DNA of 64,000 bases, from positions 1 through 64,000 of the forward strand of contig CAMCMB010000019.1 of assembly GCA_945875845.1 (NCBI GenBank), read 5' to 3'. Shown piece by piece: positions 7,407 through 56,865 of this stretch; the first letter of the stretch is position 1; each line of letters begins with the position of its first letter. The notes under the pieces were generated by a model. The model was not told where the DNA came from. It saw only the letters and a program-made list of their open reading frames with translations, and ran no database searches. The DNA comes from Pirellula staleyi DSM 6068. GTDB taxonomy: Bacteria > Planctomycetota > Planctomycetia > Pirellulales > Pirellulaceae. A program made the position numbers and the translations under genes.

Positions 7407-7998
7407 CGCGGGCGTAGCATCGGAACCAAATCCATGGAAACCCGAATCGTAACGGCTCGTTGCTTTAATGGACTGTGATACGGGGTATTCGAACGTGGTA
7501 TGGGCGTCTCGCCCATGAATTCACGAGCGCGCTCGTGCCACGCGATGGTAACCCGACGCATAACGGCTTGTTGCTTTAATGGTACGACGGACTTCCAAGT
7601 CCGTCGGATTCCCCATTGACGGACTTGGAAGTCCGTCTTACCGCCCTTACCCAATAACGACTTCACTAAAGCAACAAGCCGGTAAGCGAGGAACTGGGTC
7701 AGGAAGCAAACGACTAACCACAGAGACACAGAGGGAGCAAGATCAAAAATATCTCGCTAGGTTGAAGGTCAGTTACCACAGGCGTAAAGCCAGTGGCATG
7801 AATTGAATGCCCCTGGGTTTATCCCAGGGGATTGTTACCCTCACGCTAGGGCAAAGTTCAGGTACCACTGGCATAAAGCCAGTTGCGTGCGTTACTGCGT
7901 TTTCGGCGGAGCACTGTATTTGCTATCGAGGATCGTTTACCATGTTGCCTTGATGAATGGCTAAGTCACCTGCTGCACAATTGAAAGGGCCCTCTCCC
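7407..7998. other. Repeat-filled intergenic region
   Basis: No gene is seen. It holds a fragment of the 116-bp element (its flank plus first 18 bp, about 7430-7466), a complete copy (7565-7680), a hairpin at 7810-7830 (cccctggg / cccagggg), and two related copies of a ccac(a/t)ggc-taaagccagt word at about 7776 and 7865. Confidence 0.7.
7565..7680 (+). repeat. 116-bp nested palindromic element, copy A
   Basis: It is bounded by 14-bp terminal inverted repeats, ggcttgttgcttta and taaagcaacaagcc. Inside is a second palindrome, acggacttccaagtccgt, repeated as ggacttggaagtccgt after an attccccattgac spacer. The outer flanks (aacccgacgc left, ggtaagcgagg right) match copy F at 56.6 kb. Confidence 0.92.
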
Positions 7999-10371: not shown

Positions 10372-10589
10372 CGTGAATCGGTTCGCTGCGAGAAGGGTAC
10401 AGACCGTTCTAAACGGAAAGGTCGTACAGTCTAATGTCTCTGGAATGAAAGAATTGCTCGCCCATTATAGCGAGGTAACTGTGGCGAGCGGTAGTATTGT
10501 TTCCGGGAGGAAAAGGCTGCCCCTGGCAACATCTTTCCAATACACAATGCAACGAACAAGTCGCAACGAATCAGCCGGAACGCGGCAGG

Positions 10590-10705
10590 GGCTTGTTGCT
10601 TTAATGGTACGACAGACTTCCTAGTCCGTTGAATTCCCCATTGACGGACTCGGAAGTCCGTCATACCGCCCTTAACCAATAACGACTTCACTAAATCAAC
10701 AAGCC
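10590..10705 (+). repeat. 116-bp nested palindromic element, copy B
   Basis: It has the same core as copy A, with terminal arms ggcttgttgcttta and taaatcaacaagcc. The flanks differ from copies A and F and are themselves palindromic (ccggaacgcggcaggg left, ccctagcttccgg right), so the core sits at the tip of a longer hairpin. Confidence 0.9.
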
Positions 10706-10736
10706 CCTAGCTTCCGGTTTATCCCGAATGGCGGGA

Positions 10737-17003: not shown

Positions 17004-17283
17004 AATTGCCGCGAGATGGGGCGCGACGCGATGTGATCACATCCCAAAGGTACCACTCAAGATACAACAACAATACGGGTCCCAAAAAAATCAACATCTG
17101 AATTGGTTGACGTATCGCAATCCATTCAGGGAGCAACGGTGTCACCCCTTGAGACAAAGCAAATATCATTCCGGTATTGACGGCCAGCATGGCAGCGCTC
17201 ATTAGGACGACACCCAGGATATAGAGCACAAGCTTTCGAACCGCACGATTCTCGACTTGCGGATCATTTTCTGTTTCTAACAT
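17002..17283 (-). CDS. Small two-helix membrane protein
   Basis: A 93-residue protein with two predicted membrane helices, KLVLYILGVVLMSAAMLAV and about 62-80 (LIFLGPVLLLYLEWYLW), with a charged N-terminus and RRAPSR tail. No family was recognised. The frame is open further upstream, but that part lies in repeat DNA shared with the flank of the element at 56.7 kb, so ATG 17283 is taken. Confidence that it is a real gene is moderate, based on two clean helices and charge pattern. Confidence 0.55.
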   Translation of the reverse strand: MLETENDPQVENRAVRKLVLYILGVVLMSAAMLAVNTGMIFALSQGVTPLLPEWIAIRQPIQMLIFLGPVLLLYLEWYLWDVITSRRAPSRGN

Positions 17284-17449
17284 TCTTGGTTCCCGTCGCT
17301 TGCTGGTTCGTCGCCTTTTGCCCCGCAAAAGGTGCGTCAAGGGCGAGACCTTTCGCGGATAGGCTGTGAATTTTTGGATGGACCACTTTTCGGCGGCAAT
17401 TCGGCAACCCACGCGGAAGCGAGGAGCCGACTGCAATCGCCCGCTCACC

Positions 17450-17565
17450 GGGCTATGGATTGAATGGTACGACGGACTTCCTAGTCCGTCGAATTCCCCA
17501 TGGACGGACTTGGACGTCCGTCGTACCGACCTTACTCAATAACGACTTCACTAAATCAACAGCCC
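17450..17565 (+). repeat. 116-bp nested palindromic element, copy C (flipped against its flanks)
   Basis: The core reads in the same direction as copies A, B and F, but its left terminal arm is degraded (gggctatggattgaa). Both outer flanks are the reverse complement of those around copy F, so the core is inverted within the larger repeat. Confidence 0.85.
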
Positions 17566-17640
17566 GTCGCGGGTCGAGTTATCATAGCCTATCCGGCGGA
17601 TAACTCACCTTGCGTCAAGCGAAAGGCGACCCGCACCATT

Positions 17641-17841
17641 CTACCGAATTCCTCTTTGCGACGCACGATATCCGCAAGTTGAATATCCGCAAGTTGAATG
17701 CGTTGCAGCCCCTCCAATGAGATTCCACTCACCGCAAAACTGGCAAGTACGGTTCCGAATAAGCCCGGAAAGGTCGATTCCTCGACTAGACAGCAATTCT
17801 GAGTAGCGATCCGGCCAATCTTGGCCTACCATGCCTATCAA
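17641..17841 (-). pseudogene. Fragment resembling a PfkB-family sugar kinase
   Basis: The minus-strand frame reads IGMVGQDWPDRYSELL then SRGIDLSGL, the typical N-terminal PfkB/ribokinase-like segment in which a strand is followed by a helix and SRGxDLSG. It continues QFCGEWNL, similar to the substrate-contact region, then degenerates into a short repeat (STCGYSTCGY). Neither the usual N-terminal GGN region nor the C-terminal DTxGAGD motif is present. It is read as a decayed remnant; the match is short, so chance resemblance cannot be excluded. Confidence 0.4.
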
Positions 17842-25099: not shown

Positions 25100-25266
25100 T
25101 TTCTGCCGCGAGCTAAGGGATGGCTGTCGTCGTCAAGCATCATGAATGTCAAGCGTCGATAGCCTTCCAACGGTTGCTTGTCATGGAATGTCCGATCGCT
25201 CGATCCAGTACTTCATGTAGTCGACAGTCTTGTCGCGAATATCGTGGGGGACCCAAACGCCTTCTA
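25100..25266 (-). pseudogene. Truncated IS3-type transposase orfB remnant
   Basis: Reading across two shifts gives LEGVWVPHDIRDKTVDYMKY, then a stop, then LEGYRRLTFMMLDDD. Both are recognisable pieces of the N-terminal half of an IS3-family orfB, with the stretch between them deleted. The integrase core with its DDE residues is gone. Confidence 0.6.
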
Positions 25267-25602
25267 GAGGTCCCCATTGGCTTTTTTTGCCCGTACGTTC
25301 TCCTCCATGAGCTCTGCGATACCTTCGTTCTTGTGGATGAGCTTCTCTTGCAGCCTTCGGATTTGCTGTTCCTTGAGCGCGTTGATTTTGGCTTCCGCCA
25401 ACTTGCTGGCCTTATCCGATTTGGCGGTCTTCTCGAAAGCCTTCACTGCGTGCTCCATCACCACAGCAACCCACTGATGGATTTGCGTTGGCTGAATCGA
25501 TAGCTCTTCGGCTATCGTGGCAATCGACTCCTTTCCTTTTAGGTGCCGCCGAACGATGGCAGCTTTTTGTTCCGCTGTGAATTTTCTACGTGAATGGGTC
25601 AT
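25264..25602 (-). CDS. IS3-type transposase orfA
   Basis: A 112-residue DNA-binding protein of the HTH_Tnp_1 type. RRKFTAEQKAAIVRRHLKG opens the helix-turn-helix, with LSIQPTQIHQWV as recognition helix, followed by a Lys/Glu-rich coiled coil (AEAKINALKEQQIRRLQEKL). It is complete, but orfB behind it is truncated, so the element cannot transpose alone. Confidence 0.8.
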   Translation of the reverse strand: MTHSRRKFTAEQKAAIVRRHLKGKESIATIAEELSIQPTQIHQWVAVVMEHAVKAFEKTAKSDKASKLAEAKINALKEQQIRRLQEKLIHKNEGIAELMEENVRAKKANGDL

Positions 25603-25676
25603 GGAAATCTCTCCGGTAAAAAAGGTTATGTCAACCTATTCAACGGAAATTCCACTTCCTACTGGAGCAAGACAAG

Positions 25677-25757
25677 GGCGGTAAGACGGACTTCCAAGTC
25701 CGTAAATGGGGAATTCGACGGACTAGGAAGTCCGTCGTACCATGAAATCAACAAGCC
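25677..25757 (-). repeat. 116-bp nested palindromic element, copy D (truncated)
   Basis: It is inverted relative to copy A. One terminal arm and about 35 bp are missing, and the break lies next to the IS3-like remnant. The intact arm (gaaatcaacaagcc) borders the same flank as copy F. Confidence 0.85.
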
Positions 25758-25870
25758 GTCACGCGTCGGGTTACCATAGGCTATTCAACGCAGAGCGCGT
25801 TCTTTCGAGGAGCGAAAGGGGACGATCATCAATTCACAGCCTTTTGAATTTAGCTGTGGCGAAACGAAAA

Positions 25871-38622: not shown

Positions 38623-38656
38623 ACGTTTTGCGGTTGATTAGCCGAAGGGCCTTAGC

Positions 38657-38789
38657 GGGCTGTTGATTTAGTGAAGTCGTTATTGGTGTGAAGTCGTTAT
38701 TGGTTAAGGGCGGTAGGACGGACTTCCAAGTCCGTCGATGGGGAATTCGACGGACTAGGAAGTCCGTCCTACTTTTAAATCAACAGCCC
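38657..38789 (-). repeat. 116-bp nested palindromic element, copy E (133 bp, internal duplication)
   Basis: It is inverted relative to copy A, with arms gggctgttgattta and taaatcaacagccc. A 17-bp internal segment (gtgaagtcgttattggt) is duplicated in tandem, which explains the extra length. The flanks form a different palindrome (ccgaagggccttagc / gaaagcccagggttttcgg). Confidence 0.88.
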
Positions 38790-38856
38790 GAAAGCCCAGG
38801 GTTTTCGGCCCATGTTAGGATTCGGTCGTCTTGTATTCTAGTTTAGGGGTAAAGGT

Positions 38857-56298: not shown

Positions 56299-56865
56299 AG
56301 ATCGCACGGGGTACCAAAATTAGGACTCGGTGATTTGCAATGCATTCAAGTACATCGCTTACCTGTGTCGTGCGAGACTCTGTAGCAATCAAATAAAAAA
56401 GACCAGCAATATTTGTACGACTTCTCGGTGTATCCGTTACAACCGTACTATCCTAGACCTCGCCTCGATGGACTTTTCGATCCATTTGTGTTGCCTTCGC
56501 TACGCGAAAGAACGCGTTCGCCGTCGGATAGGCTATGGAAACCCGACGCGTGACGGCTTGTTGATTTAATGGTACGACGGACTTCCTAGTCCGTCGAATT
56601 CCCCATTGACGGACTTGGAGGTCCGTCCTACCGCCCTTACATAATAACGACTTCACTAAATCAACAAGCCGGTCAGCGAGGGATTGCAGTCGGCTCCTCG
56701 CTTACGGGCACGGGTTTTCAAACTGCCGCCAAAAAGTGCACCATTTGTAAATTCACAGCCTGTACGCGAAAGAACGCGAGAAGAGCACAACTTTTTCGGG
56801 TCAAAAGGTGACAATCGGACATTAATGATCGACCGATGCAAAATTTGGCTGGAACTCTGCGAGCA
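56299..56865. other. Intergenic region with element copy F
   Basis: It holds the 116-bp core (56555-56670) and its right flank to about 56780, which reappears inverted at 17.33-17.45 kb. No gene is supported. Confidence 0.6.
56555..56670 (+). repeat. 116-bp nested palindromic element, copy F
   Basis: A complete core with perfect arms ggcttgttgattta / taaatcaacaagcc and inner palindromes acttcctagt and acttggaggt. It serves here as the reference for comparing flanks. Confidence 0.93.

Follow-up and report, generated by a model that had tools for sequence, protein, structure and literature searches.

Several bacterial insertion sequences (ISs) are known to target REP palindromes. ISPsy8, ISPa11, ISPpu9/10, ISRm22 and ISRm19 are described in this way, and IS1397 and ISKpn1 are named in the same context (PMC1525189). 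The REP-targeting ISs have fixed insertion points and direct repeats, and hybrid repeats are attributed to recombination between copies (PMC1525189). In the case of ISPsy8, where the transposase is always on the plus strand, the broken REP is on the minus strand four times and on the plus strand once, so that both relative orientations are on record (PMC1525189). These elements are autonomous and present in 4 to 9 copies where copies are numbered (PMC1525189). Bacterial MITEs such as MITEAba12 (PMC6382973), NEMIS and RUP (PMC3733652) are short, non-coding, high-copy sequences with terminal inverted repeats. A third relevant system is the class 3 TnpA-Y1 transposases, found mainly in Planctomycetes, Acidobacteria and Proteobacteria, in which a Y----Q motif is combined with REP-like structures (PMC6006769).

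The locus examined here, from a planctomycete, has features of all three. Like the REP-targeting ISs, its core element sits at a fixed step of a palindrome between direct repeats, and its empty target can be reconstructed (PMC1525189). Unlike them, the core is 118 bp long and gene-free, with 266 anchor matches, 4-bp duplications and orientations near 1:1. With the MITEs it shares all the properties listed above, but in contrast to MITEAba12, NEMIS and RUP it strongly prefers REP-like palindromes, and its parent IS was not found among three DDE families. The likeness to class 3 TnpA-Y1 (HuH) concerns the surrounding repeat and does not extend to the core: a many-copy palindrome flanks a Y1_Tnp protein of about 180 amino acids with NHxH and Y----Q motifs, as in that class (PMC6006769). 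A MITE specialising in REP-like palindromes is a variant of the known REP-targeting elements. Among titles and abstract beginnings of the open-licence papers retrieved, we found no description of a high-copy MITE that targets the REP-like palindromes of a class-3-like TnpA-Y1.

The window, that is, the whole stretch of 64,000 nucleotides that was analysed, belongs to contig C19 of a genome of 7.0 Mb in 149 contigs (G000). The initial annotation reported that two of its core copies, C and F, read in the same direction although the flanks of one are the reverse complement of the flanks of the other. Aligned on the same strand, the two cores are identical at 106 of 117 positions (score 185); core C against the reverse complement of core F scores 77 (z 15), a residual match that we take to be a product of the core's own hairpin. 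With the cores excluded, the left flank of C (17310-17448) aligns to the reverse complement of the right flank of F (56672-56812) with 108/143 identities (score 140, z 30; mean 20.1 and maximum 41 in 300 shuffles), and the right flank of C (17567-17641) to the reverse complement of the left flank of F (56460-56553) with 49/67 (score 56, z 10; shuffled mean 17.9, maximum 33). Three same-strand flank comparisons, used as controls, gave z values of only 2.0, 1.2 and 0.6. The observation is confirmed: beyond chance, the flanks of C and F are related and the core is not inverted along with them. Neither contrary outcome, unrelated flanks or cores inverted as well, was found by alignment. Two details changed. 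The core, given as 116 bp, measures 118 bp in each copy at refined boundaries (C 17449-17566, F 56554-56671), and the flank homology, placed between 17330 and 17612, is present at those limits but extends farther, to about 17310 and 17630.

The repeat interrupted by C and F is a REP-like palindrome, AACCCGACGCGTNAGCGAGG-loop-CCTCGCTNACGCGTCGGGTT, here termed type 1; a second family, type 2, has CTAG near its middle. By eye, the two cores occupy the same arm of one asymmetric palindrome; its asymmetric loop, GAGCCGACTGCAATC, gives the direction. The arms of C are imperfect (CGGGCTATGGATTGA vs TAAATCAACAGCCCG). The features of the window are as follows.

7564-7681, plus strand: copy A of the core, inside a type-1 palindrome
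10589-10706, plus strand: copy B of the core, inside a type-2 palindrome
17310-17641, no strand: composite at C, outer repeat plus core, absent from the orthologous site in sister genome G014 (breakpoints not base-exact)
17406-17448, plus strand: left part of the REP-like palindrome interrupted by C, AACCC..AGCGAGGAGCCGACTGCAATCGCCCGCTCAC (sequence and empty version, L182)
17445-17448, no strand: left target duplication of C, TCAC (sequence and tally)
17449-17566, plus strand: copy C of the core, terminal inverted repeats around a double hairpin (anchor 17538-17555)
17567-17570, no strand: right target duplication of C, TCGC, one mismatch (sequence and tally)
17567-17580, plus strand: right part of the palindrome interrupted by C, TCGCGGGTCGAGTT (sequence and empty version)
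25674-25758, minus strand: copy D of the core, truncated; a gene encoding an HTH protein of transposase type lies nearby
38656-38790, minus strand: copy E of the core, 135 bp, with a short internal duplication
56540-56553, plus strand: left part of the palindrome interrupted by F, AACCCGACGCGTGA (sequence)
56550-56553, no strand: left target duplication of F, GTGA (sequence and tally)
56554-56671, plus strand: copy F of the core, facing the other way from C within the palindrome (alignment)
56672-56675, no strand: right target duplication of F, GTCA, one mismatch (sequence and tally)
56672-56715, plus strand: right part of the palindrome interrupted by F, GTCAGCGAGGGATTGCAGTCGGCTCCTCGCTTACGGGCACGGGTT (sequence)

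The gene near truncated copy D (25264-25602, minus strand) encodes a 112-amino acid protein with a transposase HTH (PF01527), and copy D may have been broken by an IS. The search for structural RNA in 17200-17800 gave one Rfam match, RF02954, at 19.9 bits, under the threshold of 42.6.

With up to 2 mismatches allowed, an 18-base stretch of the core matches 266 places in G000; the reversed control matches none. Both ends could be set in 116 of 123 anchors from the window and the retrieved loci, the other 7 being dropped; these 116, out of about 266, are the first-listed and best-matching copies and form a non-random sample. Exactly 118 bp separate the ends in 109 of the 116. The core is thus short and uniform in length; it has no coding capacity and is too small to encode a transposase. 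Its ends are imperfect terminal inverted repeats of about 15 bp, CGGGCTGTTGATTTA or CGGCTTGTTGATTTA, the end type of the arms being CGGSYTGTTGMTTTA. A perfect 4-bp direct repeat borders 62 of the 116 bounded cores (mean 13.7 and maximum 22 in 200 shuffles); it is missing in the other 54, with C and F each one mismatch away. The commonest duplications are CTAG (18), GTAA (11), TTAC (9), TCAC (9), GTGA (5) and CCAG (4), and non-palindromic ones (CCAG, CAAG, CCTG, CTGG) also occur. Short uniform non-coding body, terminal inverted repeats and a fixed 4-bp duplication are the marks of a MITE, and the anatomy of the core is that of a MITE moved by a transposase with a 4-bp stagger. Two truncated copies, L128 (G000:C8) and L251 (G002:C37), retain one arm.

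Core anchors were found in 8 of the 40 genomes listed, including its own, hence in 7 of 39 relatives. All anchor matches in G008, G010, G020 and G021, and 2 of 5 in G002, are devoid of arms, so that genuine cores are seen in G002, G014 and G016. The named records in which a core occurs (9 stretches) are Pirellula-labelled metagenome assemblies. A hairpin doublet resembling the interior of the core (GACGGACTTCC..GTCCGTC) is present, alone or in tandem, at L293-L295, L297 and L299 in G007, G013 and G009; the anchor search of these three genomes gave no core.

In all likelihood, the core is a 118-bp MITE that inserts in either direction into REP-like palindromes, and C and F are separate insertions. 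The steps would be these. A non-autonomous transposon of 118 bp, duplicating 4 bp of its target, enters chiefly type-1 palindromes, at a GTRA/TYAC step between base and tip, in either arm, as the flanks and the empty copies show; the flanks show palindromes with CTAG near the centre to be a second target. Judging from the tally and the duplications, C and F would have arisen by separate insertions, with opposite cores, into two copies of the same palindrome. A DDE-type transposase, past or located elsewhere, would have moved the element in trans, and homologous recombination between copies would have produced arrays and chimeric flanks.

In 63 of the 116 cores both flanks are halves of the type-1 palindrome (BT 26, TB 23, BB 11, TT 3, where B is the base and T the tip). 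In 22 both match the type-2 family (XX 9, XB 9, BX 4), with the reservation for XB and BX that the fuzzy rule may confuse half of one palindrome family with half of the other, though L088 looks truly mixed. Matches are one-sided or mixed in 19 (?T 5, X? 4, ?X 3, B? 3, T? 2, ?B 1, TX 1). By the same rules neither palindrome is found on either side of 12 cores, 5 of which resemble the palindromes beside L285. Allowing up to 2 mismatches, a search of all of G000 gave 72 intact type-1 arms, against 2 for the control; at about 60 bp each they amount to roughly 4 kb out of 7.0 Mb, a figure that leaves aside palindromes of greater divergence. Even so, the preference of the core for type-1 palindromes is strong. 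Seven palindromes (L181-L187) have both arms intact and are empty of cores; L182 is the empty counterpart of the surroundings of C. Further nesting is seen at L185, L186 and L027, where the type-1 palindrome is itself enclosed by larger repeats whose ends resemble GAGACTGCTGATTTA or GGGCTTGTTGATTTA.

The source of the type-1 palindrome may be a TnpA-Y1 gene. G000 has 19 matches to PF01797 (Y1_Tnp), 17 of them above the cut-off, and one of the 19, L265 (ORF G000:C21:225-767), is bracketed by type-1 palindromes. On the left, the palindrome stops about 14 bases ahead of the start codon; the one on the right starts at 736, within the last codons of the ORF. The targets of 66 of the 116 cores resemble these two palindromes above all 300 random window pieces. 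The L265 protein scores 26.2 bits against Pfam Y1_Tnp (cut-off 23) and 21.5 bits, far under the cut-off of 80, against NCBIfam REP_Tyr_transpos (REP-associated tyrosine transposase); among solved structures there was no convincing match (best E 0.04, unrelated). Its relative L272, at 20.2 bits, falls under the Pfam cut-off. NHxH, which is NHSH in L265, and Y----Q are invariant in seven of seven aligned Y1 proteins, picked from 15 matches as stop-free, with L281 and the fragment L282 left out.

The class 3 motif NHVH reads NHSH in this protein. The 5' foot of class 3 is CnGA (PMC6006769), and CCGA is present in the type-1 palindrome. Among 12 relatives of L265 whose flanks were compared by eye, with no statistic, the closest (in G014, G001 and G010) are flanked by AACCCGA palindromes like type 1, and the more distant ones by other palindromes; several of the 12 genes carry stops. 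The type-1 repeat shows two marks of a REP: it is a many-copy palindrome, as arm matches and folds indicate, and it flanks a Y1 transposase gene. Because of the context of L265 and the description of class 3 (PMC6006769), it is best read as the putative REP of a class-3-like TnpA-Y1 enzyme. The type-1 palindromes would then be the REP-like sequences of a RAYT-like TnpA-Y1 gene, whose flanks are as described and whose activity is presumed. The initial annotation had proposed a search for a TnpA_REP-like gene, which thus succeeded for the surrounding repeat and failed for the core. For type 2, the gene of L285 was considered as a possible counterpart; the link is weak, with 10 of 116 targets matching the L285-side palindromes above controls, and its protein has no Pfam match at E 0.01.

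A transposase gene with the ends of the core was not found in G000 among the three DDE families searched (PF01609, 5 hits; PF13546 and PF13586, none). Exact occurrences of the arm with C or T directly after it numbered 7, every one at a locus that has a core as well. Loose matches to the arm mean little, because each of the five DDE loci has 2 to 7 at up to 4 mismatches in 15. A decayed DDE gene (PF13701, below cut-off) lies between long inverted repeats at L180 (G000:C41:37763-40966). The ends of this locus, GCTGTGAATTTA, contain one 3-mismatch and one 4-mismatch arm match, at both ends of the long inverted repeat, oriented as in the core and adjoining CTAG and CTGG. L180 is a possible relative of the missing parent, a lead and not a result.

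Crossing over between cores would leave recognizable products. The 11 BB copies have the palindrome base on both sides and have lost the tip hairpin, the 3 TT copies form another such class, and at L093 (G000:C35:67000-68809) three cores form an array in which they alternate with the palindrome's tip hairpin. We infer that these are the expected leftovers. Pairs of cores less than 400 bp apart number 11, at nine of the retrieved loci, and all are direct, which fits tandem exchange or the loss of long palindromes.

Within type-1 palindromes, the core runs base-to-tip in 26 copies (including F; 16 with a perfect duplication) and tip-to-base in 23 (including C; 17 with a perfect duplication). In the 27 of these 49 with a loop readable by script, the arrangements are right arm minus 12 (F among them), left minus 7, right plus 6 and left plus 2; C, one of the 22 unread, is right arm plus by eye and was added by hand to its group for the clustering test. 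Independent insertion in either orientation accounts for 26 versus 23 without inversion, as would free inversion. Either-orientation insertion at a preferred target suffices, and inversion in place is unneeded. Of the two routes offered in the initial annotation, insertion in both orientations is thus well supported by the 4-bp duplications, the empty palindromes and this tally, whereas a flip by recombination over the arms is unneeded and has no direct support, though a pair of orthologous sites at which the cores face opposite ways leave it some probability.

These sites come from a comparison of orthologues among the retrieved loci. G014 and G016, 94-97% identical in aligned loci, have the same core orientation at all three shared sites. 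G000 and G016 share four, two in the same orientation (L010/L148, L083/L172) and two in opposite orientations (L052/L213, L112/L144). The opposite pairs could stem from two separate events at a hot spot or from a single insertion that flipped. The L052/L213 pair, with different arm types and several differing internal bases, leans toward separate insertions. A rank test of core similarity at orthologous sites had no power; same-orientation orthologues are no closer than random copies, so core similarity cannot decide between a flip and two insertions. Between collinear flanks G014 is devoid of the composite of C (471 bases in the window vs 81 unmatched in G014, so that the empty site is not exact to the base); this absence is a point against an assembly chimera as well. 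Core plus palindrome are missing from G014 at the L007/L060 site as well. L123 and L147/L214, considered as one shared insertion, were dropped, their flanks being different.

Two explanations involve flipping of the core within the palindrome. In the broader one, which we regard as rather unlikely, a DDE-type MITE has specialised on palindromes spread by TnpA-Y1, in a layering of two unrelated transposition systems of which one makes the targets that the other fills, and the core flips over its arms on the evolutionary time scale, so that orthologous orientation turns over between species. It is also unlikely, in our estimate, that the core inverts in place within the palindrome through its inverted arms, by site-specific or RecA-type recombination, occasionally or as a switch. 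Such inversion would account for the two orientations found at an identical spot in different copies of one palindrome, and for the opposite orthologues of G000 and G016. With about 15 imperfect bp, the arms are short for homologous recombination, and the agreement of G014 and G016 at every shared site among the retrieved loci, the sequence differences between L052 and L213 and the uniformly direct close pairs all speak against it, with the reservation for the last that inverted pairs may be lost as unstable palindromes.

According to another explanation, core and palindrome travelled together as a composite that flipped just once, early on, giving rise to two composite lineages. Eleven listed places in the genome do share about 213-298 bp with the composite of C, at 82-84% identity and in the forward direction. 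However, the cores show no grouping by arrangement (the observed value was reached in 1789 of 2000 shuffles) and none by BT versus TB (275 of 300), all four combinations of arm and orientation are present among the readable copies, and cores also occur outside the type-1 family with duplications of their own. We consider this quite improbable. As groups, type-1 and type-2 cores differ slightly (7 of 300 shuffles reach the observed value), and because of this difference the core pool is not fully mixed between the two kinds of palindrome, a point that counts against the preferred reading.

It is highly improbable that the core is REPIN-like and moved by TnpA-Y1 (HuH) via single-stranded DNA instead of by a DDE transposase: the number of Y1_Tnp matches in G000, the occurrence of the interior hairpin doublet alone in other Pirellula-group genomes and strong single-strand folds (z -6.4 and -9.2) would suit such a mode, but Y1 enzymes of the IS200/IS605 type are not known to duplicate their target, which is at odds with the 4-bp direct repeats, and cores on both sides were found at none of the 19 Y1 loci.

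With separate insertions of a MITE as the preferred reading, the apparent inversion of the core is best seen as ordinary in itself, the outcome of a known habit of mobile elements and not of a DNA switch. What looked like a flip of DNA becomes a record of insertions, and a high-copy palindrome of a Pirellula-like genome is linked to a class-3-like TnpA-Y1 gene. The origin and behaviour of class 3 TnpA-Y1 are described as calling for experiments (PMC6006769). Pairs of gene and repeat can now be compared within one genus, near relatives having similar AACCCGA palindromes and distant ones others. The two orthologous sites with opposite cores provide concrete loci at which to ask whether short inverted arms flip in nature.
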